Origin: Grammothele lineata
Taxonomy: Eukaryota; Basidiomycota; Agaricomycetes; Polyporales; Polyporaceae
DNA: 64,000 nucleotides
Assembly: GCA_002150815.3 (NCBI GenBank)
Contig: NDFF03000030.1
Location: forward strand, 124,001-188,000
Direction of reading: 5' to 3'
Shown here piece after piece: positions 25,328 through 49,734 of this stretch. Each line of letters begins with the position of its first letter. Within the stretch, counting starts at the first letter, position 1. The translations under genes and the position numbers were made by a program. A model generated the notes under the pieces. The model saw nothing but the letters and a program-made list of their open reading frames with translations, did no database searches and was not told the origin of the DNA.

Positions 25328-25997
25328 CTAGTACAGCACACCGCATACACGCTCAACCCGTGCTGATAAATCCTTCGTTTCAGCCCCCAGTGTTATCCAG
25401 GGTATATCTAACTCGGAGAGTGTTCCACGTAGCACGTCGCTGTACCTTCACGGATCCTCCAAGGAACGAACCCCGTCGTCTTCTACCCACTCCTTGACCG
25501 GTTCCAGTACTACTGAAGCCCGTCAAGTCAAAAATCGAACGGACTTTACGGGTTCTACGATGTTACTCACCGAAGAGCGCGCGCCTGTACCGCGGTAACG
25601 TCCTTTGAAATCCAGCGTCTTCGAGCAGTCGCTGACGTCGGCTGCTGGCTCCAGGAACGAGGGATGTGGCTGCGTAGACAATTGGATCTATCGCGGATCG
25701 ATCACTCAACAGCATACGTCTGCTGCCCTGTTCAGTTTCATCACTGTCTGCTACGCTATGATTCATGGCAGAACATTCCGCGTCGAGCTGGCCTCGCATA
25801 ATCGCGTGTTGCATTTCGTAGGTATCCGTGTCGTCCCGAGTGAATCCGTGGGCTGCCATCACTCTCCTAGCGACTTCCTTGATGTATAAAGGATCACGGA
25901 TGTCGAGTCTCTGTGAGAGGGCGTCGCATAGCGTTGTTTTTCCGCTCGACGATGGGCCAAGGACGTAGATCTCCTGGTACTTGGACGTCTCGCACAT
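25328..25997 (-). pseudogene. P-loop AAA_28-type (NadR/TTD14-like) ATPase with in-frame stop
   Basis: The reverse-strand frame starts at 25997 with a Walker A motif GPSSSGKTTL at residues 14-23, then YIKEVARRVMAAHG, LLSDRSAIDPIVYA and LPRYRRALFG. These are hallmarks of the AAA_28 nucleotide-binding domain. Exon 1 ends at 25571; after a 58 bp intron exon 2 begins at 25512 with VLEPVKEWVEDDGVRSLEDP. A TGA at 25450-25448 then interrupts the frame, while family-like sequence continues in the same frame (YSDVLRGTLSELDIPW, then AETKDLSARVE) to a TAG at 25328. So the C-terminal about 40 residues are lost: a young pseudogene, a truncated but expressed protein (163 residues), or a base error. It lies head to head with the RdRP-helicase gene. 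Confidence 0.7.
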
Positions 25998-26130
25998 GAG
26001 GACCTGTATGGTCCGTAAAATGAACTAATAGTTCATTTCTTTCTCTCGAGAAGCTGCTTACCTGTATCCGGATGGCATAGAAGTAGTGCACCCTGTATCG
26101 CAACAGGCCGGTGATATATGTCGAGGTGGC

Positions 26131-29100
26131 ATGGGCGCCTTGGACGCCTTCCCACAAAGAAGGTTAGAGGATGCTGCGGTAAGTCTCTCTTCGCATGTCA
26201 GTCAATCATCTGAGCGCTCACACCTTCCTCAGGCTCAGTCTCCATCGTGCCACCGGAAGGCTGCACCTTGTTGTCTTTTACACATGCCGCCTATCGTTCT
26301 GCGCACGAATCCATCTCCAGACGACACCGAATGGGTGTTCACAGCCCGTCTCGGGCCGCCTCCAAAGCGCCCTGGGATGGGCATGCACGTCGCCTTCACG
26401 GCTGACTCCATCAAACTGGACTGGACTCTATTTCCAGGAAACAGGATCCTGCAGTCGGACGACATGTCCAAGTTCGTGTTGGTCTCATTTGAGGGCCTGC
26501 GGTTTCCCGACAAACCGCCATCAACCAATCGCGACTATAAGATCCGGTTCTTCAAGGAGGGACTCCGTCTCAACGGCGTAGAGTATCGATTCTATGGGCA
26601 TAGTAACTCCCAACTGGTACGTGGTTTGAGCATCACTCTCCATTGTTGTTGAACGCGGTGTTTAGCGGTCAGGAAGCTGCTTTATGCGTGCTGGGACAGA
26701 TGCAGAGCTCGAACGTCGTATCAACAGCTACGGTGAATTTTCAAAGATCAAGAATATCGCTAAGTGTACGTTCTGCCTATTGAGATCATGTACTATGCGC
26801 TGAGATGCCTCAGGTGCCAAGCGAATTGGTCTACTATTCTCGAAAGCGGAAATGGACTGGAACTTGGACCCCAAAGTAACCGAGGATATCGACGATATCA
26901 TCGTCGATGGCGAAAACTTCTCAGACGGGTGCGGACTCATCGGACCAGCTTTCGTGAGACTTCTCAGTCGGAAGAAGGGAATCAAGTTCCACGGACGTCC
27001 ATACGTCCCACGCGTATATCAAATCCGGTGAGATTCTAGTCAGAGAATAGGGTATTCCATTAGCTTGACGTCTTTCTCGTGTAGATACAAAGGTTACAAG
27101 GTATGAGAGACTGCTTTAACAAAGGGATAGCACTGATCGCCTGTGTTCCTTAGGGCGTTGTGATGCTACATCCTGAGCTAAACAAAAACATTGTGGCCCA
27201 GTTTCGAGCCAGTCAGAAGAAATTCCGCGCAACCACCGAGAACACTTTTTCGGTAGTCGCATACTCGACTCCCTACTCATATGCTCGCCTCAATAACGAG
27301 ATCGTCGTACTCCTCTCTAGTCTTGGAGTATCTTCTGAGACATTTCTCAGGCGGCAAGCTGAATACCACGGATGGATACGTGCTGCATCTACGGACTGGG
27401 AGGTCGCTTTCAACATCCTTTGTGCTCTCAAAGAATACGCCGCCGCCGAGAAGCTCCTCCTGGAGGGAATAGATACGCCTCAAATCCAAAAACAGATTCT
27501 CTCCGTGCAGAAGGCGGAGGTTGAGGCGTTCAAAAAGAAAGACAAGTTCCGCGCTAGGATGATTATCCCAAAATCGCGTTTCCTGTTTGGGGTGTGCGAT
27601 CCGTACAGCGTCCTCAACGAGGGTGAAGTCCACGTCAGGGTATCTGTTCCTCGGAAAGGCGAGACGACGCTCACAAATATCGACGTGATCATTGTGCGCA
27701 ACCCGTGTCTACATCCCGGAGATTGTTTAAAATTACGCGCCGTCGCGCATCCGCGTTTGGATCATCTAGTAGACTGTGTGGTCTTCGCATCCAAAGGACG
27801 GCGAGCAGCACCTGCAATGAGTGCGGGTGGGGACCTCGGTGCGTCACATCATGTATCTATATTCCTGCAAATATGTCTTACCTTAGGCTGCGTAATGTAG
27901 ACGGAGACCAATATACAGTAATATGGGATCCCGACTTCGTCCCACAGAAGATCGCTGAGGTACGGCGGTGAACGTGTAATGATCTCACCTTGCGGGCTCT
28001 GAATTTGCTCTTAGTCATACACTTATCCCCCTGGCAAGGAGCATACTGTGGCTCAGGTCACGAGAGAAGACTTGGCACGACACTTTGCTTCATACAACTC
28101 GTACGCTATACCTCACATCGGATGCCGTGCGTCCTGAGTCATGTCGCTAACTTATTCCCAGGATGGCGCTTGCGAGAATCGTGAAGTTACACAACCAGTG
28201 GGTTCGTTGCAGCCCGAAAGGTGCCATGAGTAACGAGTGTCAAGATCTCAATGCTCTACATTCTCTCGTTGTCGACGGTGGCTCCGTCAAGATCCCGGAT
28301 AGGCTTACCAACCCGCCCACCGATCCTGATACGCCGTTCATCCTTGATCAACTTGGCGACGCAGCACGAGGTTTCCACGATACTTGGATGAGCGCGCCGG
28401 ACTTTTTGAGGCCCGACGACAGCGTTGTTAATCAAACTGTGGCAGAAGACATGATAGTAGCGCTTCTAACATCCGACAAGTTGGCGGTCTCTGAGTATGA
28501 ACTGGCGATGATGGCGGTACAATTCGCCGCGAAGCACGATCTCGACATCCATAGGCATTTCGGTCACATTGACTTTAGCGCTTTCTCGACAGCGGAGAAG
28601 CATGCATTTAGCTTGAGGCTAGGGCTGACTCCACAGAGCGCGCCATTCATCTGGAATAGGTCAGTCCACGCTCGAAATACCGGACACCGAAAGCATTGAC
28701 ACGAACTTGCGCCCTTACTAGCCTCATGCGCTCTGATATCCTCCAGCCACAAGACCTCGTCGACCGAAACCTTGAGGGTCCCCTTCGTACGCAGAGGCTG
28801 TACTGCTCGTCTATACAGGGTCGCGCCGCCTTCTTCGAGTATCTACGTGAGGCTGTGGAGAACTTTGAACGGCGCCTTCTGATTCTCAAGGTGAGCATAC
28901 ACAGATGTACCAATACGTTGTTGCGATACCCAACGAACACGTAGACCGATGACCGATTCTCCGTTGGTGTATTCCTCCGGGGGCCGATTGGATGGGATAG
29001 CGACGTTGAGTTCAGATACTTGTATCCGCACTCAATATGATTAACAAGCTCTCGTGTAGGCTGAGGTCAACGAGAATGTTGTTGTCTGTTCATTCATGCC

Positions 29101-32100
29101 CAAGGCGTCAGGGCTCATGTCCACGTACTGGAAAGGGACAAAAGGATACAAACTGTACTGCGGCGAAAGTCTACTTCAGTTATACGATCAGCAACGCGCA
29201 AACAGTTTTGTCTTCGTCACACGGCCCCCTATCGCGTCAGGCGCGGACATCATCACGAGTATTGCACTCAACAAAATCTCCCAGCGTGTGCAACTGGTGG
29301 GTCGATCAACTCTGCACTCCCTCTTACACTTCTCATGCCGTTTCAGCAATGCGGACGCGTACGACGCTCCCCAGTGGTCACTCTAGAAATCCATGTTGTA
29401 TCATGCAGGGATCGCATAGCTCATCAAGCATTTGACCTGAGATTCGAATAGTGAGTACGGCGGACGCAAAGATGCTAGTTACTCAAAATATGGCACTCTA
29501 GCGTCCAGACGGAGGAAGTCCTGAAGCGCTTTGATTATTCGAAGCAGAAATTCTCGTACAACAGTATATCCAACTTCGACTGGGCAGAAGATGTTGAAGG
29601 AGCTCTTCTTTTCGATACGGCCGTTCCAATGGATCGCGTGGATGCAATATTGCGTCTCCTCAGCGCGCCCAAACTCCGCCAGTACTTCGACATCGCTGTC
29701 CGCTTCCGCGTAGAAACTCACGTCTTTGCGATATTCTCAATTTTTCTTGATCGTACAGACGTGCCTTTGGAAGACCTATGCTACTGCATGGATGCCTATC
29801 CGTCTCTCGTCTACTGCGTTCTGAAGACATACGTTCCGGATCCAAACACCGCGCTTCCATTGAATTTCGCTCCCATTGTTCCCCACATCCTTCGGAGCGT
29901 CATTCGCTCTGCAAATCAGCTTGGAATCGCAGCCCTAGCAGCCCTAGAGCGCCTCACTCCAGCCATCGCGGGATTGGACCTCAAGACGTTCTTTGATCTG
30001 CTGTGGCTCGCTACCCTATCCGTTCGATCGTCAACGCTGGTTCAAGAGGTTTTGATGGTCTTCCATGACGCCCGGCTCGATCGCCGCGAGCGCGACCCCG
30101 TACTGGCTTTCTCCCACAAGCACGCGCTTGCCGTCGCCTTCGACCGCACAGAAGAGGCCGCGGACACTTGCCCATGCGACGACTTCGGTAGGCCGCGCCA
30201 CCAGCGCACGCGGCCCGCACGCGCGAAACTGGTCCCACCCCAGCAGCAGCAGCAGCAACCCAAAGAAGAGAGCGGCGGCGCCGAAGTGGTAGCAGACGAC
30301 GCGCCCGAATTAGGGAAGACGGTCGTCGTAGCGCATACGCGCATCGACAATCCCACCCCGGTCCGCATCCACAGCCATGTCCGTCTGCAGCTCGCCTCTA
30401 TCGCGGAGCACTCAACGCTCGCCCCGCCCGTGGTAGATGCAATCGTGATCAGAGCGATGCGAGGCGAGCTTCATTTGGAGGTCATGCAACCGCTCCCGCC
30501 CGAATGGCCCGACGTGGAGTGGAACCTCTTCGATGCAGGAGGCGCGGCGACGTCCGCAGCTATGTTAGCTGCAGTCCTCAAGCTCGCACTGAAGGGATAT
30601 GAGTGCTGTCGTCTCAATCACATCCTCGTAGGCCTCGATCCAGTCGCGAGTGGCACCGTTCCTCCAGACACTCCGCCAGAACAAGAGGCACCTGACGAGC
30701 ACGCTGAAGATACTTCTGCGGAGGTTACCATCGATACCAGCCTTAATGATAGTCAAAAACACGCGGTTCGCTTGGCCGTCCAGAGCAAGTTGTGCTTGAT
30801 CTGGGGCCCACCCGGTAACACATTTTGCGGGAAACTTGCCCGCTGCGATGCTGAGAAGGTCTTGTGCAGGAACGGGGAAAACTACTGTTGTAGTCCAGAT
30901 CCTCGTGCAATATCTCCGCCGTCTCCCAGACGCCAAAATCCTCATGACAGCCTCGACACATAATGGTACGCGCTGAACTCCATCATGAGATACAATCATC
31001 GCATTGACCCCACGCATACAGCCGTTGACAATGTCCTCGAACGATTCGTTGCATTCAATGCCTCTCATCGCCTTCTGGACGAAGAACGTATCATTCGCGC
31101 AGCTACAGAGAGCTCCCGGGTCCATAAATCACTCCAGCGTTTCACCGTCGACTCCCGCCTGGGCGGCAGCGTCACCGACAATCCTCGCCTCGTGCAGAAG
31201 GCCGTCAAGCGAGTCAAGGACGCGCGCATTGTGTTCACGACATGCTCTGGAGCCGGGCTCGGCGTCCTCCGCAACATCGACTTCGACACGGTTCTCATCG
31301 ACGAAGCATCACAGATCACTGAACCATGCGCCCTCATCCCTTTGGTGAAAGGATGCGAGCGTGCGGTTCTCGTTGGAGACCAGTATGAAATCTGCTACTT
31401 ACTTTTTCTTTACTCCAATTGAAGTTCCTCCCGCAGCGTGCAACTGCGTCCTACTGTGAAGCCGATGGGAAAGGCGCTCGAGTTCGACAAGTCCCTATTC
31501 GAGAGGTTGTATCGTGGACCGGCCTATCCTGGACTAGAGCGCACGATGCTTGAGGTTCGTACCTGTGATATTTCTGTATCAGAGGCTGATGCATTCTCGC
31601 AACGACAGGTACAATATCGATTCTCTGAAGACGTCGCTCGCTTTCCGTCACAGGAGTTCTACGAAAGTCGCTTACAGACTGGAACTCCGCGTGACGCCGA
31701 GATCGCCTCCACGCTCGGGATCTCCTCGTTCCCCTGGCCACGCACCAACGGCCAGATCTCACCAGTCGTATTCGTCCCATGTACATCCGACGAGGATTAC
31801 GGCCGCTCGTCGAAAAGCAATGCCGGGCAGGTTGCACTGGTCAAGCACATCATCTCTCTCCTCCGCACTCAGACGCCGTCTGACGGTTTGGCTGAAGGCG
31901 AATCCGACGCACGCCGCGCTCGCCTGAAGGAAATGACAGTTGCAGTACTCACCCCATACTCCCGTCAAGTCCAACTCCTCCGCCAAACACTTCCTCCAGC
32001 ATTCGACGCGGTCGTGAGCACAATCGATGGCTTCCAGGGGCGTGAAGGCGATGTGGTGGTATTCTCCACAGTACGATGCAACCTTGAAGGGGATATCGGG

Positions 32101-32262
32101 TTTGTCGAAGACGAACGACGGCTCAATGTCGCGTGGACGCGCCCGCGGCTCGGGATGGTTATTGTTGGGGATCGGCGGACGCTGGAAGCGACGAGCGCGC
32201 TATGGCGACGAGCCCTTGCGGCTTGCGTGGAGGTGGTGATTCCGAGGCCGGAAGTGGTCTGA
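26131..32262 (+). CDS. RNA-dependent RNA polymerase fused to SF1 (Upf1/ZNFX1-like) helicase
   Basis: One frame across 18 exons, about 1733 residues (5202 nt of spliced codons). Residues about 60-640 are a eukaryotic RdRP core (QDE-1/Rdp1/RDR family): NRIL, NFSDGCGLIGP (family FTDGCG), KFHGRPYVPRVYQIR, KSRFLFGVCDP, AMSAGGDL, and the catalytic metal-binding DLDGD completed by splicing 27838 to 27901. The C-terminal about 500 residues are an SF1 helicase: LNDSQKHAV, Walker A GPPGTGKTT (spliced 30814/30870), TASTHNAVDNVL, Walker B VLIDEASQITEP, VGDHVQLRPTV, VQYRFSEDV, STIDGFQGREGDVV and NVAWTRPRLGMVIVG. The domains join through a linker with no stop. It probably makes dsRNA in RNA silencing. The start is uncertain: 26284 is the alternative, because 26179-26232 is an intron in frame either way. 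The N-terminal lobe of QDE-1/Rdp1 is missing. Confidence 0.85.
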
Positions 32263-35281: not shown

Positions 35282-37676
35282 ATGGTCTTCTATCGCTTCG
35301 CCATCTTCGCGCTCGCCATCCTCGTGGAGGCCTCGAACGTCGACGCGCGGTCCGTCCCGCGTGGCTGGACGGCCCGCCGCCGTGCCGCATTGGACGACTT
35401 CATTCCCCTCAAGTTCTCCCTGGCACAGTCCAACGTGCACAACCTCGAGTCATACCTCCTCGACGTCGCGGATCCCCGCTCGCCGAACTACGGCAAGTAC
35501 TGGACCCCAAACCAGGTCGCGGAGGCCTTCCGTCCCTCACAGGACACCGTCGACGCTGTTCTCTCGTGGCTCGTAGGCGACCACGGCGTCGCGTTGGACC
35601 GTGTGGAGCTCACACGCAAAGGCGACGCAATCCGCTTGAACGCTAGCGTCGCAGAGGCGGAGAAAATCCTCGGCGCGGAGTACTTCGTGTACTCTCACGA
35701 CCAAAGCGGGACCCAACGTGTTGGGTGCCATGGCGGATATACCCTCCCGGACCACGTCGCGAAGCATGTCGACCTCGTGTCGCCGACGATACACTTCAGT
35801 GATTCGGGGGTGATGCGGCGTTCTATATCCCCTTTTGTCCGTCGTGCCGTGAGCAAGTCGCTGGCTGGGCACGAGGCTGGTGTTGCAAAAACACCCATTT
35901 CAGTACGTCGCACACTTCTGATGCTTACATTCGCGACGACACACTGACCAACACGACGCAGGACTCTGAGCTTGCCGCGACTGGCTGTGATCAACAGGTC
36001 ACTCTTGACTGTTTGCGTGCCCTGTACAACTTCGATCACGATATTGTAGCTGGTGACAAAAACACGGTCTCAGTTTGTGAGTCGTCTCCTTGATATGTTT
36101 GCTGTATTCCTGATTCGAAATATCGTAGTCGAGCTGCAGGGGGAGAACTTCAGGCAGTCAGACCTCGACAAATTCTTCCAGATGTTTGCCCCTGATCAAG
36201 TTGGCAACCACCCGACGCTCGAGAGCATCGAGGGAGGTTTGTCCAGTTTTCATTTTCGTCTTCGTACGAACGTCTGTTCATAATGACTTCTTCAGGCAAT
36301 GTTACAACAACTGGCGACTTCGGTGAAGCCTCTCTCGATATTCAACTCATGATGGGCCTTCTTGGCTCCAAGCAAGAGCTTCTCCTGTACCAGATTGGAG
36401 ATCAGAATGCGGAGCAAGACCCCCGTACGAGCGTTCCTTCAGACTAAAATCTCTTTGCTCATCTCACGCATGTGAATGGTCCAGTTGATGAATTCGTCGC
36501 GGCGTTCGACGCGTCTTTCTGCGACGAAGAAGCGGTCACTGACGAAGGTCCGTGTGTTTTAGATGTACGGTGCATGACGGAGCTTACTCCATGTACAGAC
36601 CTCATTGATTGTGGAGATAAGCCCATGGCAAATGTTGTCTCAATCTCCTACCATCTCAACCCCGACATTCACGAAGACGACATCACACCCGTTATCCAAC
36701 GTCAGTGTACCGAGTTCGGAAAGGTGCAGTGTCATGTTTTCTCCGATTGTGGATATCACTCATTCCTATCCGTATTTGGCAGCTCACGCTCGCCGGTATG
36801 ACGATCGTGGTCTCCTCTGGGGACGGCGGTGTCGCGTACTCGCAGTCGCACGGCTGCCTTACCTCCAACGGCACGCTCGTCTTCGGCAACCCCGCCAACT
36901 CGAGCTTCGTCGGCCAGTTCCCCGCTTCGTGCCCGTTCGTCACCGCCGTCGGCGCGACACAAGTGACGTCAGGCAACAGCGTACGCCTCTCTCCGCGCTT
37001 CTTGCCTGGCGCTGCGTACCTTACATTGCTCTATAGGTCGATGATCCGGAGACCGCGACGACGGCATTCCCCTCTGGCGCGGGCTTCTCGAACACCTTCG
37101 CACAGCCGTCGTTCCAACAGGCCGCCGCCAGCAACTACGTGACGAACTTCGCGCCCGCGTACGGCCCCAATGTCTTCAACCGGTCTGGTCGCGCCTACCC
37201 CGACGTCTCCGCGAACGGGTGAGTGTTCAGTATCATGTGTTCGTTGCACGGTATATGGTATGCTCATTGTCTGCCGCCACGATCGCCCAGATTCCCAACG
37301 GTAATCGCGGAGGGCGGCCAGTTTGTCCTCACGGGCGGCACATCCGCGTCCGCACCTATCTTCGCGTCTTTCGTCGCGGCGATCAACGATGCGCGCATCG
37401 CCGCAGGCAAGGGCCCTGTGGGGTTCATCAACCCCGCGGTACGTCAATCCCTCGTTCTCTGCGCTGATAGAAGTCATCGTACATGCTCACTGATGCTCGC
37501 GGACCCTACAGCTCTACTCGGATGCGTTCGCCGACGCCTTCAACGATATCACGAATGGCACGAACGCGGGCTGTGGCACGGTGGGCTTCCCTGCGGCCCC
37601 TGGCTGGGACCCGATCACGGGCTTGGGCACGCCGAACTTCCCCAACTTGCTTTCGGCGTTCCTTGCGCTCCCGTGA
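35282..37676 (+). CDS. Secreted sedolisin (S53 family), tripeptidyl-peptidase-like
   Basis: Ten exons, 617 residues, cleanly in frame. An N-terminal signal peptide (hydrophobic FAIFALAILVEA) is followed by the pro-kumamolisin activation domain (NYGKYWTPNQVAEAF; KILGAEYFVYSH; LPDHVAKHVDLVSPT). The catalytic domain carries the Glu/Asp pair in GEASLD (exon 4), the oxyanion Asp in SSGDGG and the Ser nucleophile in GGTSASAP, with the calcium-site region DITNGTNAGC and GWDPITGLGTPNF near the end. These acid-active serine proteases are secreted to digest extracellular protein, commonly releasing tripeptides. Oddities: SSGDGG instead of the usual SSGDSG, and GGTSASAP instead of SGTSASxP, but the catalytic residues are present. 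It is convergent with the helicase 1 gene, 145 bp away. Confidence 0.92.
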
Positions 37677-37821
37677 AGCATAGCCGGCGGCGGTTTTCGT
37701 TCCTCCAGGCTCCAGTCGACCCATGGGTGCGGTGACGATGAAACGAAAGTAGTATTCCAGCATGTAGAATTAGGGATTAGGCGTCTACTCTAAAAGCCAC
37801 GCTGCTGTATCTTAGGGTGAC

Positions 37822-40784
37822 TTATTGGGGCGACATCGACAGCTTCAATCGGCCAACACAATCTGGAAGCCTCGCTCGCTGATCCGCGATCTCCATCGCG
37901 TCTACCCACATCTTCTCAGCACCGACATGCTGTTCCCAATGCGTTGCCAGCGAGCCAAGGAGCGTCTCCTTGCCGGGTCCGTCGAGGAACGCACGCTGGG
38001 TTACGACGACCATGCCCAACCGGCAGCGCGTGAGCATGACGTTCATGCGGTTCTGGAGCTTGAGGAACCCGGGGACGGACGTGCGCACGGTGGAGAGAAT
38101 GATGTAGTCCATCTCGTGGCCTGTGCGCGATCATATTGATTGGATGCTGAGGGTGGAAGCAAGGCGAATGGTGAGAGAAAAACATACCTTGGAAGCTGTC
38201 GACATTGTAAACGTTGTCGTGCGGTAGCCAAGCAGCCTTAAGTGCGGTGACAATCGCGGCGCGTTGAGGGTCATAAGGGGTAATGATGGCATAACGCTTT
38301 CCAGCGTCGTGATATCGCCGAGCGACGTGGACGACCGTGTGGACTTCCTCCACGTTCTACGTATCCCCATGAGTAACGTGAGCTCGGCGCACCGTCGTAA
38401 GACACATGAGTGGAACGGGGACATACCTTCCAGCTAGAGCCGACACGTTCTTCCGTTCCCTTGCATACGTCGATGAACGTGACGTAGTCATGCTCGACCA
38501 ACGGATGTTGAGATCGTAATTTGCCTTCGTAGACGTGCTCGGAGATGAAAGAACCGATCGGCACTGGCATGCGGTCTGCCACGCATGAAGAGTAAGTAGT
38601 CGCAACGGTGCAGCGAGACAGGGGTGCGCGTACACTGCGTATCGAGGAAGTAGGTTGGGTAGTGGAGATGCTTGTAGTCGAAGACTGTCTTCATCTTCGG
38701 CGCGGTCTCCTTCCCGAATGGAGGTACTGCACGAAAAAGTCAGCGACGCCCATATGTAATGATACCCAAAACCCACGCACGCTGATTTGGATCGCCGAAC
38801 ATGCACACCTTTGTCAAGGCAGTGAACTTGTGGAATAGATGCTGCATTGACACCATATCAGTGACCGAAGAAGGCGCTTGTAGTCCAGATAAGGACTTAC
38901 CAGGAACTCGCCCATGTCAATCTGGGAGGCCTCATCCACTACAAGGCGTTGAACAGGGACAAGGTCGAATACCCCGAAGCTATCCATGTCAAGATTCGAC
39001 AGCATCGCTGTCGTGCATAGTATGACCTTGGACTCTCCGATAAGGCTTTCAACGCTATCCAAGTCTTGGAAGAGTTTGCTCGAATCTATGAAGTAGTCAG
39101 AGAGTTCGACGTAGTGGTGTTCGTGCCTGCAGCAAGTCGACGAAGTGAGCATGGTACTCCAGAAGGCTTGACCATAGAAACATACCATTCGAAGTAGAAC
39201 TCGTGTGAAACGATGAGCTTGAAGTCTATGCCTCGTTTCGCGAGCGTCTCAGCGATGTTCTTCACCCCGACATTGGAGTGCGCGACGACCCAAGCTGGCT
39301 GATCCCGGTCTTCCCAATACTCCAGTGCTGCAGCAATCGTCGTCGTCTTACCAGTTCCCGGCGGACCTAGCACCAGTGTCAGTTACATAACAAGCTGTCT
39401 TGGTCTGAACAACGCGTACCTTGGGCGACCACGAGTGATTCTACATCCCCAACCATCGCACTAGCAACCTGGCGTTGCGACGCGTTGAGCTTTGAGAACG
39501 CAGGCTCATCCTCGACTCTCTTCAGCGCCTTCATTTTTGCGTTCCTCGAGGGGCCCTTCTGTTTCCCCTGAACGAGGAATATCTTGCGCACGAATGGACT
39601 CTGATCGACAGGCGTCGCACCCTGTAATACGCGCAGGAGGAACTCATCCCGGGCACGCTCGGTAAGCGCGGGTTCCGCTCGTCCCACAACGCGCACGCTC
39701 TCAACCTTGCTATTGAGCGAACCGTGGAAAACAGTGAGATCTGTCCGCCTGCCTTGTATACCGTAGGCTCGGGCCTTGACATCCCCGTCGTTGATTTCCA
39801 CAACGGTCTGCGCACGCGAGTCAACTAACGTTCAGCGGATGTGGAGCGACTCGCGACTGACCGTGTTGCTACGCCGTACTCGTGTCTTGAATCGCGCGTT
39901 GATCAAGGCAAGGCCATCCTTGCCCTTTTCCTCTGCCTCCTCAATCTCCCCGTGGAAGAACTTCGGTCTCGCCGACTCGAGAAGTTGGACAGTCAGTGCT
40001 AGATGGTTGAGACAAAGGTGTTGATGGAGGCGTAGATGACGCGTGTCGATCTTCGCTGCAGTCCTGACTGACTCAGCACTCTTCTCGGCGATGCTAGGCA
40101 ACACGGTCAGAAACGCTGTTCAAACGATGAGCGGTGTGTTTCTCACCATGCTGACAACCACGCGCGAAGACAGAGCTCGACGCTGTCGTCGCGCTCCCAA
40201 AGCGCGTCGATTTTCGCCCGCCGAACGTTTTGCCCCTCGAAGACCTGCGCTGCAAGCTGTGCAGGCTGTATCTGCACATGCGTCGACTTGGAGTGCAAAG
40301 TGGAGAGGTCGACGCCGCGCACGGGCGCGTCGAAACGATGGCCCAAGATGAGCGCGAGCCGGGGCAAGTGGAAGCCCGCCAAGAGCACGCGCGGATCGTC
40401 GAGGACGCGGGCGATAGGAACGGCGCTAGTAGCCGGCCCGGCGGCTCCGACGCCGCTGTCCCGGGAATCGGCTTCCGCCGCCGCGGCGTCGCCGCGGTCC
40501 GACGTGGCATCCCCGACTGGACCGTCTTTAGCACCAGTGCCACTGAATCCTGGAGGAACAGCGACGAGAAAAACTTCGGCGGGGGTGGCGAGAGCGACGG
40601 TGGTGACGATGCCCTTCCAGTTCAATCTGAAAGACACGCCCAGTGCGGGTAATGGCGCGTCGGGCTCGGTCGAGAGTTGGTCGAGCGCTGTTTTTATGGC
40701 GTCACAATTGTCTACTCGGAGATGCTGAATGAGAATGGCTGAGGGCAGGCCGGAGACGAGGTTTCGAGTGTCGAAGAGTGGCAT
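37822..40784 (-). CDS. SF1 helicase (Upf1/DNA2-like), paralogue 1
   Basis: Reverse-strand multi-exon gene starting MPLFDTRNLVSGLP. The N-terminal about 210 residues (LDDPRVLLAGFHLPRLALIL, then RGVDLSTLHS) faintly resemble the RNase D/DnaQ exonuclease fold but lack obvious catalytic acids. The helicase follows: LNASQRQVASAMV, Walker A GPPGTGKTTTIAAAL, VVAHSNVGVKNIAETLAKRG, Walker B VVDEASQID, CMFGDPNQ, YRMPVPIG, VYNVDSFQ, and GHEMDYIILSTVRT with NVMLTRCRLGMVVV. All SF1 motifs are present and every exon junction I checked keeps the frame. It is a nucleic-acid-dependent ATPase/helicase; target unknown. A paralogue of the same structure lies 6 kb away in opposite orientation. Confidence 0.85.
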
Positions 40785-40938
40785 ATGTGCGACGCGGAGA
40801 AAAGTAAGTGTAGGTGGTGGATTGTGAACAACGTACGCAGCTGAGGACCACTGAGCAGGTTTCCAATAATTCAATACCCGAGACGTGACAAGTGAAGTAT
40901 GCAGGCGTGCGTACAATGTATCTTTGATACGCGAACAT

Positions 40939-41673
40939 TTATTGGCTTTCGCCGTGTACTAAGCGTTCCAAGCGTTCTTCTAAGCTGGCGCTCGCTTCAA
41001 ACCTTTCTCCACGGCGAGTCAAGGCGCCTTTGACGCCTCGGCGTCCGGAGAGTGAAGGCAGAACGAGCAAGGCTAGGAGTACGCATAGATCCTTTAAGAC
41101 GCCATTCAGGGTTGTATTCCATGGGACCTGAGAGAGACAGTGTGAGCAAGATTATGAACACTGCGCACATACTTGAGCTGGCGCGGTGACAGCAGCACCG
41201 GCGTAGCAGTCGGACTCCCATGTCTGAGTGACCCTGAAATTTAGCTCACCGAGTACGACATCCAGCCGGTTTTGCTTGGACGGCACCGGGAAACATGCTT
41301 CGAGCGTTGCAGAGAGCTCCCTTAGCGATACCTCTTTCCTTTCGGACTTCGGGAGCGAGCTAACTTCCACACTAACGCCCAGTGTCGCCGGATACCCTGC
41401 AGTCGAGCCTCCAAAGGTCAGCGACAGTCTTTCGCGACATACCAGAAGGATGGGTCCGCCGAAAACAAGTTGAATCGGGGACTCACTCTTACACGCATCA
41501 TCACTCACGATCACGACGCCTAGAAGAGCCAAATTCCCCAGGAACTCCTCTGCGGTCCACAGCCCGGCCGAGATGCCACCAAACCCGAAGATGCAGCTCC
41601 TTCTCAGCCTACGAGCAAGCAAACAGAGAGAAAACCATCGCAATCGGAAGGAATACCACTCATTAATGCGCAA
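40939..41673 (-). CDS. Hypothetical membrane-anchored protein
   Basis: Not a family I recognise. The last exon (41127-40939) joins in frame to an upstream exon ending at 41173 (GTATGT...CTCAG intron). The spliced C-terminus reads TWESDCYAGAAVTAPAQ then VPWNTTLNGVLKD, a hydrophobic stretch CVLLALLVLPSL that could span a membrane, and a charged SLEERLERLVHGESQ end. The 5' part is uncertain: GTGAGT sequences near 41510-41530 (reverse strand) could mark another intron, and the start codon may lie further upstream. The model is real at its 3' end and tentative elsewhere. Confidence 0.45.
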
Positions 41674-45934: not shown

Positions 45935-46593
45935 TTTCGAGCTCGCCGTGCGCGCAAATTGACTTTCTTGCCGCACGTGCAGGCATTTCGACGCGATAAG
46001 TCTTGATAAGTCCCATTTGCGGACATTGATGGGAACTTGCATTATCAGAGTACGCATGAGCGCCCAACGTGCGCTCAACTCGGAGCTCTTCCCTTCTCCG
46101 TCGACCATATCCATCCGGCGATTGTGAACGGCTGGACGAATTCTAACATCTTCTACGTGTCCAGTAAGGTTTGACTAGTATGCCAGGTGATATTCCCCTG
46201 CATCGGAGCCTCAAAACAGCCAATACCGAGTAGGATTGCGTGCGCTCACTAGCTCATCCTTTTCACTGTACTTGCTCTAAACGTGGCGAATGTCCCCTTT
46301 GCTGATATTCAGACACTAAGATTGTGCTCTATGTACTCTTCATACGGATGGCTCAGTCGACTTTAGAGTTCCGAGCGGCGGGTGATCGAAGACCTCGAGG
46401 GCGCGTAAGAAAGCTGGTTACCTAAAGAAACCGCTTTCCACGCTTTCAACGCCCATGCACCACTCGCCCCTTCTGTGGTCGTTTTCCCTCTGTCCGTCTC
46501 AAGAATCGTCCAAGAGAACGCGTTTTCCAGGTACGACAATGGCCACCTTGCAGGACTGTCCGTTCCCTGCCCTCTTCTCTCTCAACCACCACC
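45935..46593. other. Divergent promoter region
   Basis: 659 bp between the RPC40 start (-) and the helicase 2 start (+). No TATA box or repeat stands out. CT-rich tracts precede 46594, usual for fungal TATA-less promoters. Confidence 0.5.
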
Positions 46594-49500
46594 ATGCCGG
46601 CCCTCGACACCCAAAACCTTGTCGACGGCCTCCCCAAGACGGTGCCCGTGCAACGCCTCAAGGCTCATGACTGCCGCGCGCTGTACGCCCTCCTTGAACG
46701 ACCTTCCCACTCCGCGCCTCTGGGCGTTTCCCTTCGCCTCGGCAAGAAGGGCTGTGTTGACGCAGTCGCGTTCGCTACTCCAACTCAAATCTACCATATC
46801 ACCGTGAACGACACTGCTGTCGTTGGTCCCAGTCCAGACCCGGTCCCACTTGCACGTGTTCTCGACCACCCGCGCGCTCTTCTCGCTGGGCTGCAATTTC
46901 CCCGCCTCGCACTCGTTCTCCACAAGCAGTTCGGCGCCCACATCCGAGGCGTGGACCTTGCGACCCTCCACTCAAATTCGTCCCTCGTACAGAAAACTGC
47001 AGGAGACTTGGCTGACAAAGTGCTTGCCAATGGATCGAGAGGGGTCCGCAAGGATAGGATCCACAAGCTCTGGGATGACCCCCAGAGCAACCACGCCTTG
47101 CACATTCGTGCCTGGCTGTCGGCATGGTGAGTCCCAGAGTCCATTATATGCACTATGTATCCATGTTCTGAGGACGCGCTATCATTTTTAAGCATCGCAG
47201 AGAAGAGTGCGGGCGTGATTCCGGGTGCAGCCAAGGTCGACACGCGCAACCTGAGTTCGCGTGAGCTCTCGTGCCTCTCACAGCTTGCAGTCAACATCAT
47301 GCTGCTTGAGGACGCGAAGCCGACCGCTGCAGACGGCGAGATTGACAACACCAAACGGAACAAGGGTGGCGTCACATTCACCAACGCGCGGTTCAAGACC
47401 CGCATAAGGGGTAGCAACAAGGTCAGCACCTCCTGCAATCGCGGCTAAATGCCCGACTATTTCGCAAAAGAGCGCATATACTCACCCATCTCTCTCCACA
47501 GATCGTCATCGAGATCAATGGGAAGCAGATCAAGGGCCGTGTTGTTGGCGTAGACGGAAAACAGACTGCAGTAAAGATCTTCAAGGGGAAACTCGCAGGG
47601 CAGGTACATTCCGTCCGCATCGTGGGGCGCGAGGAGGCGACGAACGCGGAGCTCGCTCGCGACGAGTTGTTCCTGCTTGCTCTCCAGGGAAAGGCGTCTC
47701 TTGGTCAGTCCCCCTTCATCCGTGACCTTTGGTTCGCACCGAGGAAGAAGCACGCGTCGAAGGAGATGGCGAAGATCATCCAACAGGAGCCCATCGTCGA
47801 CACCCCTTCGTTCGCGCGGCTCAACTCCTCCCAACGCGAGGTCGCGCGCGCGATGGTGACGGGTACTCAACGGCTCGTCATCGCCCACGGTACGCGCCCA
47901 TTCCACGTCTCCGTAACGATAACGATTTCTCACGCGTCCGTGCAGGCCCTCCTGGGACAGGCAAGACGAGTACGATCGCTGCTGCGTTGCAGTTCTGGGA
48001 GGCGCGCCGCACGCCAGTCTGGGTCGTTGCGCACTCGAACGTCGGCGTGAAGAACATCGCGGAGAATCTCGCTAAACGCGAAATCGACTTCAAGATAATT
48101 GTTTCGCACGATTTCTACTACGACTGGTGCGCGTTCCCCGCTTTCCTTTCCCGCGGCGCGTACACTCATGGACACGGTCCTTGACGTGTAGGCACGAGCA
48201 CCATTATGTCGACTTGTCGAAGCACTTTGTCGAGTCTACCACACTCTTCGAAAATGCTGCGAGTGTACACACGGCCCTTGGGTCATCGAAGATTATCCTG
48301 TGTACGATTGCGATGCTCTCGAATCCGAACATGGGAGAGTTTTGGTGTATTCAAGCGCGTCCCCGTCGAGCGTCTCATCGTGGACGAGGCGTCGCAGATC
48401 GATACCGTGGAGTTCTTGGTGAGTTGACTATGGGGCGGTTGAAACGTATAAGAGGGACTGACACGCGACATGCGAAGCATCTCTTCCACAAGTTTAAGAA
48501 GCTGGAGAAAGTGTGCATGTTCGGCGACCCTGAGCAGCGTGCGTCATCGCGTTCCTCGCCGATACATCCGGTCGACGTGACTCATTAGCACTGCAGTTCC
48601 ACCACATGGCAAGGACGCCGCTCCCAAAATGCAGACAATCTTCGACTTCAAGCACTTCCAGTCTTCGTCATACTTTCTCGACACCCAATGTACGCCCCTC
48701 TTCCATCACTGTCCTGTCCATGTGGGCTTACTGCATTTGAACTCGACCAGACCGCATGCCGGTACCGCTTGGAGAGTTCATCTCCAAGAAAGTCTACAAG
48801 GGCAAGCTCCGCTCCGTACACGAAACGACCAACCCGGGCTGCATTGTGTTCATTGACGTGCACAAGGGGAATGAGGAAAGTGTCGGATCCAGCTGGAGGG
48901 TACGTGCCTTCCCTTCCTCCCGCGCATCAGTCAAGTCTGACTGCGCGACCGCAGAATCAGGAGGAAGTGCACGCCGTGGTCAACCTCGCGCGGTCTTATC
49001 ACCGTCTGGGCAAGCAGTACGCGGTAATCACGCCGTACGACCCTCAGCGCGCCGCGCTCACCATCGCGCTCAAGGCGGCGAAGCTGCCACACGACGTCTA
49101 CAACGTCGACAGCTTCCAAGGTACGCTTCCCTCCCCCTCTCTTTCCCGTTCACGCTCGCGCCCACCTCGATACCAGCACCACCATTTACTGACGCGACGA
49201 ACCCGCACAGGCCACGAAGCAGACTACATCCTCCTCAGCACCGTGCGCACCGCCCGCCCGGGGTTCCTCGCGCTCAAGAATCGCACGAACGTCATGCTCA
49301 CGCGCTGCCGCCGAGGCATGGTCGTCGTCTCCAACCGCGCGTTCCTCCGCGGCGCGGGCGAGCACACGCTGGTCGGGGCGCTCGCGCGGCATTGGGAGGA
49401 GCGGTATGGATCTGTCACTAACACTGGCAGGGAGGGAGGGGGAGGGGGAAGGGTGTGGGCAGACGCGATGGACGTGGTGAATGGGCGCATGGTGTTGCCT

Positions 49501-49734
49501 GGGTGTGGGCCTGCGAAGGAGGGGGCGATCATGGTTAGAGGTGTGATCGCACCCGCGGGTTCAGGTGCAGAAGTAGTTGTGGGCGCGGACGCCGTCGTAG
49601 GGACAAACGCGGTCGCAGGGAGAACCGCGGGTGCGGGTCCAAATCCGGGTTCAGGCGCAAACGCGGTCGTGAGCGCCAGCGCGGGCGGGGGCGCGAGGAG
49701 AGGCGCGGGCGCGAAGGGTCGCGCGGGTGCGTAG
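46594..49734 (+). CDS. SF1 helicase (Upf1/DNA2-like), paralogue 2, with 1-nt frameshift
   Basis: Same architecture and intron positions as the helicase at 37822-40784: MPALDTQNLVDGLP start, the N-terminal module ending IRAWLSAC-IAEKSAG, LNSSQREVARAMV, Walker A GPPGTGKTSTIAAAL, VVAHSNVGVKNIAENLAKRE, CMFGDPEQ, YRMPVPLG, VYNVDSFQ, and GHEADYILLSTVRT with NVMLTRCRRGMVVV. In the exon between Walker A and Walker B the run TTTT at 48350-48353 has one T more than the frame allows. NPNMGEF upstream and GVFKRVPVERLIVDEASQID downstream lie in different frames. If real, the protein ends before Walker B. After the helicase, paralogue 2 has an Ala/Gly/Val-rich tail with GADAVVGTNAVAG-like repeats not found in paralogue 1. 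Confidence 0.75.

Follow-up and report, generated by a model that had tools for sequence, protein, structure and literature searches.

A polymerase and a helicase predicted in one gene

We analysed a 64,000-nucleotide (nt) stretch of the Grammothele lineata genome (contig NDFF03000030.1, positions 124,001 to 188,000 of the forward strand; hereafter the window) and describe in it a gene predicted to join an RNA-dependent RNA polymerase (RdRP) and a superfamily 1 (SF1) helicase in a single protein. The gene lies at 26131..32262 on the plus strand. A splice model made on the genomic DNA, together with tests of its introns, divides it into 18 exons encoding 1733 amino acids and orders the product as RdRP, orphan middle region and SF1 helicase. 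All 17 introns are 48-62 nt long and follow the GT...AG rule, with one weak donor (GTTGAG at 29005). The start codon is at 26131, and a later in-frame ATG at residue 34 is the alternative. The original prediction placed an RdRP core together with a complete SF1 helicase in one open frame of 5202 nt, and re-splicing returned exactly this length: 1733 codons and a single terminal stop, with no stop inside the model.

The amino-terminal enzyme is a cellular RdRP domain (PF05183, residues 116-570, 26530..28279, plus strand) that scores 359.6 bits in Pfam against a cut-off of 23.8 (E = 4.4e-107). Its catalytic motif, DLDGD, had been expected near residue 480 and was found at residues 481-485 (27832..27908, plus strand); in the splice model it is split by an intron at 27839-27900. 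A sequence search of the PDB aligned this motif to the DLDGD of 7w84 and 7eu0. The nearest solved RdRPs by sequence were 7w84 (E = 2.9e-57), 7w82 and 7eu0 (E = 2.9e-54; named RNA-dependent RNA polymerase 2), which we take to be plant enzymes, whereas QDE-1 is distant (5fsw, E = 4.9e-16). Judged by these alignments, the fusion polymerase is a cellular RdRP closer to the RDR2 type than to QDE-1.

Compared with its relatives, the polymerase half begins late. Alignment of the RdRP core starts at residue 107 here and at residue 438 in 7w84, and residue 123 matches residue 565 of a paralogue from the same genome (C232a), counted along a stop-to-stop frame rather than from a modelled start. The pieces found of the other RdRP paralogues are too short to judge their N-terminal length. 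By sequence comparison, the RdRP half is without roughly 330-440 pre-core residues relative to 7w84 and C232a. There is little room for a longer N-terminus because a divergent AAA_28-type frame ends at 26024, 110-130 nt before the start codon. For QDE-1, the structural sections of PMC1750930 give a slab at 390-646, double-psi beta-barrels at 690-792 (DPBB1) and 916-1018 (DPBB2), and the catalytic aspartates at 1007-1011; scaling from the aspartates suggests that both barrels are present in the fusion RdRP and that its slab is shortened. The original prediction of a compact polymerase without the N-terminal lobe of QDE-1 and Rdp1 thus stands as far as the short N-terminus goes. It does not extend to the catalytic core, which is not truncated, and the missing part is mostly pre-core sequence that the crystallised QDE-1 deltaN, as described in the same sections, also lacks (PMC1750930).

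The carboxy-terminal enzyme is an SF1 helicase core (AAA_11 and AAA_12, residues ~1300-1705, 30739..32175, plus strand), recognized by Pfam (AAA_11, E = 1.6e-46; AAA_12 at residues 1494-1705, E = 2e-43), by its motifs and by alignment to PDB sequences. This core carries a Walker A motif (GPPGTGKTT, residue 1322), a DEAx box (DEASQ, 1450), a QYR motif and the arginines of motif VI (WTRPR, 1692). Its best PDB sequence match is NAM7, the yeast UPF1 (8rd3, E = 1.8e-46), in an alignment that covers the whole helicase half (residues 1300-1719). NAM7 scored 166.7 bits, followed by human UPF1 (163.7), SMUBP-2 (150.1) and a 5'-3' RNA helicase-like protein (147.2); SEN1 (131.8), DNA2 (124.9) and ZNFX1 (109.3) scored lower.

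We considered whether, in a real fusion, the helicase half has decayed into a passenger or serves as a binding platform, with silencing carried out through the polymerase alone. Motif VI is atypical, as is the block after the QYR motif, which reads QYRFSE in the fusion versus QYRMNP in NAM7 and QYRMHP in the genome's own UPF1; because of these departures from UPF1, the fused helicase might be weak. Against a degraded helicase, the Walker A motif, the DEAx box, the QYR arginine and two motif VI arginines are kept, and the AAA_11 and AAA_12 scores lie far over their cut-offs. We consider a passenger quite improbable; except for the motor, it would overlap with the explanation that we prefer.

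Evidence for a single joined gene

The weak point of the fusion is the junction of exons 13 and 14, where the intron-13 donor (TA/GTGAGT) overlaps an in-frame TAG at 29449-29451. The intron itself (29451..29501, plus strand, GTGAGT...TAG) was assigned by frame and intron tests. Were it left unspliced, the polymerase half would end at residue 886, and the first in-frame ATG past this TAG is at 29629. Both signals would be used if two adjacent genes lay here, a polymerase ending at the TAG and a separate UPF1-like helicase starting at an in-frame ATG from 29629. The segment 29502-29650, mostly upstream of that ATG, scores 0.249 for codon use in the model frame versus -0.235 and -0.297 in the other frames, exceeding all frames of six contrast introns (maximum 0.166). 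Because of this score, and because the intron-13 donor is consensus-like (GTGAGT), the fusion is preferred over two genes. No AATAAA or ATTAAA was listed across 28601-31000, signals that are often missing in fungi. Additionally, Fgrdrp5 of Fusarium graminearum, as the domain descriptions in PMC11237814 present it, has the same joined architecture. Two genes are therefore very improbable, and we strongly favour a single joined gene on the genomic sequence.

The remaining tests of the linking region varied in weight. Exon 14 (29502..30814, plus strand) is a single open exon of 1313 nt in the splice model, running from the linking region into the Walker A motif of the helicase, and in 5000 first-order Markov sequences based on the exon the longest open run was 410 codons, short of its 437. 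The model frame had the best codon score of the three frames in all ten linking segments. This score had been trained on the Pfam-annotated parts of the same gene, and the start of one segment falls within them. Half of the six contrast introns scored (12, 13 and 14) were also positive in one frame (0.116, 0.148 and 0.166), so that linking segments scoring 0.028-0.14 weigh little alone. When each intron was retained singly, a premature stop appeared in 15 of 17 cases, and introns 1 and 17 could be retained in frame. At the intron-13 junction, 12 of the GT-AG choices tried (40-130 nt), the modelled one included, leave the fusion open.

Two further readings of the locus were set aside. A pseudogene was rejected, given a model without internal stops and G+C at third codon positions of 0.56-0.66 in the eight stretches computed. 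An assembly artefact joining two genes is disfavoured by the assembled sequence, in which the linking exon is continuous. No direct or inverted repeats of at least 25 nt (14-nt seed) were found in 24-34 kilobases (kb) of the window.

A middle region without detectable relatives

The two enzymes are separated by an orphan middle region some 560 residues long (residues ~578-1135, 28301..30246, plus strand), for which searches of Pfam, the PDB and the fungus's own genome returned no relative. Pfam gave no match at E <= 10, and the PDB sequence search nothing better than E = 0.97. Searches of the genome score the best candidates only, so place counts given here and below are minimum values, and an absence carries little weight; within this scope no second copy of the middle region appeared, all five matches being the fusion gene's own exons (three candidates scored). 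We also searched a 204-residue piece of the region against non-fungal collections, obtaining 68 pattern matches and no relatives in prokaryote genomes and no pattern matches in viral contigs.

A single-sequence structure model of 412 residues of exon 14 had a mean predicted local distance difference test (pLDDT) score of 46.1. Within it, residues ~927-1082 (29620..30087, plus strand) are predicted as an all-helical stretch, with blocks at pLDDT 63-79 over nearly all of its length and low confidence outside it. A fold search of the PDB with this model gave 961 matches at E <= 10 and none at E <= 0.001. The middle region is thus predicted to be partly helical.

The fused helicase resembles UPF1

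The original prediction equated the gene with the polymerase-helicase pairs that include Hrr1, SAD-3 and ZNFX-1, and raised the possibility that a separate Hrr1/SAD-3 orthologue would be missing. Neither idea was borne out. The helicase half is nearer to NAM7 than to ZNFX1 (166.7 versus 109.3 bits), and the opposite preference was seen for a control, a separate helicase at C82:1-6500 whose hand-joined partial sequence, lacking Walker A, reaches 217.3 bits against ZNFX1 and 59.2 against NAM7. This ZNFX1-type SF1 helicase, which lies near a contig end and has a Cys-rich tail, is a candidate Hrr1/SAD-3 orthologue. Searching the genome with the fused helicase gave at least 15 matches at E <= 0.01, its own exons included; C82 was not among the matches listed, and the best other gene among them was UPF1 on C101, pieces of which were 35% and 46% identical. 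On these grounds we rejected, as hardly credible, a Rosetta-stone fusion in which Rdp1 is joined to an Hrr1/SAD-3/ZNFX1 helicase that takes the place of the separate partner in the RNA-directed RNA polymerase complex.

The NFX1 zinc finger was not listed by Pfam for the fusion protein, which is a weak test: PF01422 also missed the C82 tail, Cys-rich by eye, and had its single match in the genome elsewhere, on C11. NFX1-type fingers are unusable as a test for this reason. The UPF1 CH domain (PF09416) was likewise not listed for the fusion protein in the Pfam scan; the genome's two pieces of it are both on C101, in the fungus's own UPF1 gene, separate from the fusion gene.

We placed the fused helicase in an approximate tree of rows with at least 200 aligned columns (12 of 13; C82 fell short with 102 columns). 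It grouped with helicases on C1 and C112 at a weak support of 0.576, the supports of its nearest nodes being 0.576 and 0.356. Its identity to the genome's other helicases is 26.8-34.5%, highest for C1 (34.5%) and C101 (33.2%). Taken from these comparisons, the fused helicase is UPF1-like without a firm subfamily place, and descent from Hrr1/SAD-3 is not supported.

Neighbouring genes and genome setting

Two further SF1 helicases lie downstream in the window, at 36500-41500 (minus strand) and 46500-49700 (plus strand). They cluster in the approximate tree with copies at C29:186739-189867 (minus strand) and C250:280163-283746 (minus strand), and three of the four share the contig of the fusion gene. 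A characteristic N-terminal section (DTxNLVxGLP...) is common to the two window copies; in the single copy scanned, Pfam matched nothing there. An origin of the fused helicase by local duplication of these neighbours was rejected, as they form a group of their own; the fusion's place in the tree is weakly supported (0.576 and 0.356). Upstream, the AAA_28-type frame is a divergent P-loop ATPase/kinase (25563-26024, minus strand), and the short region separating it from the fusion gene may hold a common promoter.

Elsewhere in the genome, PF05183 matched at least 12 places, 10 of them substantial and two short (C10 at 111.6 kb, and C245 at 3.0 kb, the latter under the cut-off). The two short pieces cover nearly the same stretch of the profile (196-274 and 196-273) and are possibly copies of an RdRP fragment. 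On C232, two RdRP genes stand ~6 kb apart, both with DLDGD. The passages of PMC4290597 on funRNA give Agaricomycotina a mean of 6.93 RdRPs (range 0-14) and Pezizomycotina a mean of 3.04 (range 2-5). AAA_12 matched at least 13 places, and among the matches listed only the fusion gene had PF05183 and AAA_12 within 10 kb of each other. Three tandem SF1 helicase genes lie ~4-5 kb apart on C223; the only one scanned with Pfam is MOV10-like and has the MOV10 barrel PF21634. Since Piwi matches (at least 7 places) and Dicer-dimer matches (at least 3) were also found, an RNA-silencing pathway is present in this genome.

Discussion

We propose that the locus encodes a single-gene fusion of an RdRP and a UPF1-like helicase that most likely acts in RNA silencing. 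Several points weigh against this proposal. The fusion is read from genomic DNA, and both steps of the mechanism outlined below are reached by inference. WTRPR in motif VI and the block after QYR depart from UPF1, and the likeness to Fgrdrp5 consists in printed domains and the residue numbers of the helicase rather than in orthology established by sequence. Nor is the fusion universal: the two RdRPs of Verticillium nonalfalfae are described with an RdRP domain only in the relevant part of PMC6572790.

How might a helicase serve an attached polymerase? MOV10, like UPF1, unwinds duplexes with 5' overhangs, as stated in a portion of PMC12305709, so UPF1-type helicases would travel 5' to 3', whereas a polymerase reads in the 3' to 5' direction. 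The motor would then oppose the reading of the template, so that the fused helicase probably does not open up template in front of the polymerase. Loading along an aberrant messenger RNA (mRNA) is more likely. The helicase would run along such an mRNA, stripping it of proteins and structure, then clear the 3' end and pass it to the polymerase joined to it, which would make the second strand without a primer, after which Dicer would cut the resulting duplex. We put forward this arrangement, in which the motor reaches, clears and hands over the 3' end, as a tentative one that may well prove wrong. Alternatively, the helicase could trail the product strand from its 5' end and peel it off, freeing the template for another round so that one template yields several copies; this we think unlikely.

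More broadly, the gene could represent an ancient RdRP subfamily of fungi that unites the middle domain with a 5' to 3' motor of the UPF1 type in one machine, feeding aberrant mRNA directly into the synthesis of small interfering RNA (siRNA), a view that we regard as rather doubtful. If true, this subfamily would merge the sensing of mRNA surveillance with the synthesis of double-stranded RNA (dsRNA). A fusion in both a basidiomycete and Fusarium would either predate the split of the phyla or reflect transfer between them, and if it is common to G. lineata and Fusarium, the physical coupling of an RNA motor to dsRNA synthesis would be old and kept by selection. A single fused protein would also let the role of a helicase in RdRP silencing (loading, stripping or product release) be measured directly. 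The notion of the fused fungal helicase as a stand-in for Hrr1/SAD-3 is corrected, given that a ZNFX1-type helicase is still present here.

Comparison with known polymerase-helicase systems

Polymerase and helicase act in one silencing pathway in Schizosaccharomyces pombe (Rdp1 and Hrr1) and Neurospora (SAD-1 and SAD-3), but as separate proteins, and the Hrr1 and SAD-3 helicases are of the ZNFX1 type. The closest solved helicase core to that of the fusion (residues 1300-1719) is UPF1/NAM7; the fusion protein differs in having no listed CH domain. Dictyostelium RrpA, RrpB and RrpC have a helicase of the Dicer-like type. The constructs described in PMC3661229 place helicase and RdRP in one protein there too, with the helicase preceding the RdRP, an order inferred from deletion arms, whereas here the helicase is C-terminal. 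In animals, Branchiostoma lanceolatum BL02069 is listed as an RdRP with an additional AAA_12 domain in the relevant section of PMC6396948. Passages from PMC4778953, PMC6643885 and PMC6572790 do not describe an RdRP-helicase fusion.

The closest parallels come from Fusarium, an ascomycete. According to the domain and mutant sections of PMC11237814, Fgrdrp5 combines a PF05183 RdRP with DEXDc (1277-1478) and AAA PF13087 (1475-1677), so that its helicase spans 1277-1677 there versus ~1300-1705 here, and it forms a branch separate from the SAD-1, RRP-3 and QDE-1 types in the published tree. In the deletion mutant, ascospore discharge is 47.6% of the wild-type level and the share of exon-antisense small RNA is 18.91% rather than 27.3%; together with Fgrdrp1 and Fgrdrp2, Fgrdrp5 was assigned to a Dicer-dependent exonic siRNA pathway (PMC11237814). 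That role is reported for Fgrdrp5 and not for the G. lineata protein. The same sections term the helicase DEAD-like and leave its role open (PMC11237814). Fusarium fujikuroi FFUJ_03638 is likewise given as an RdRP with ATPase domains in the corresponding part of PMC11130915. The type of fusion as such is thus not new, since Fgrdrp5, FFUJ_03638 and BL02069 have already been described. The original claim that this fungus had itself covalently joined the two enzymes gives way before the matching domain set of Fgrdrp5 at nearly the same residues and the ATPase domains of FFUJ_03638; by its predicted domains, the G. lineata gene belongs to the RdRP-SF1 type known from Fgrdrp5.
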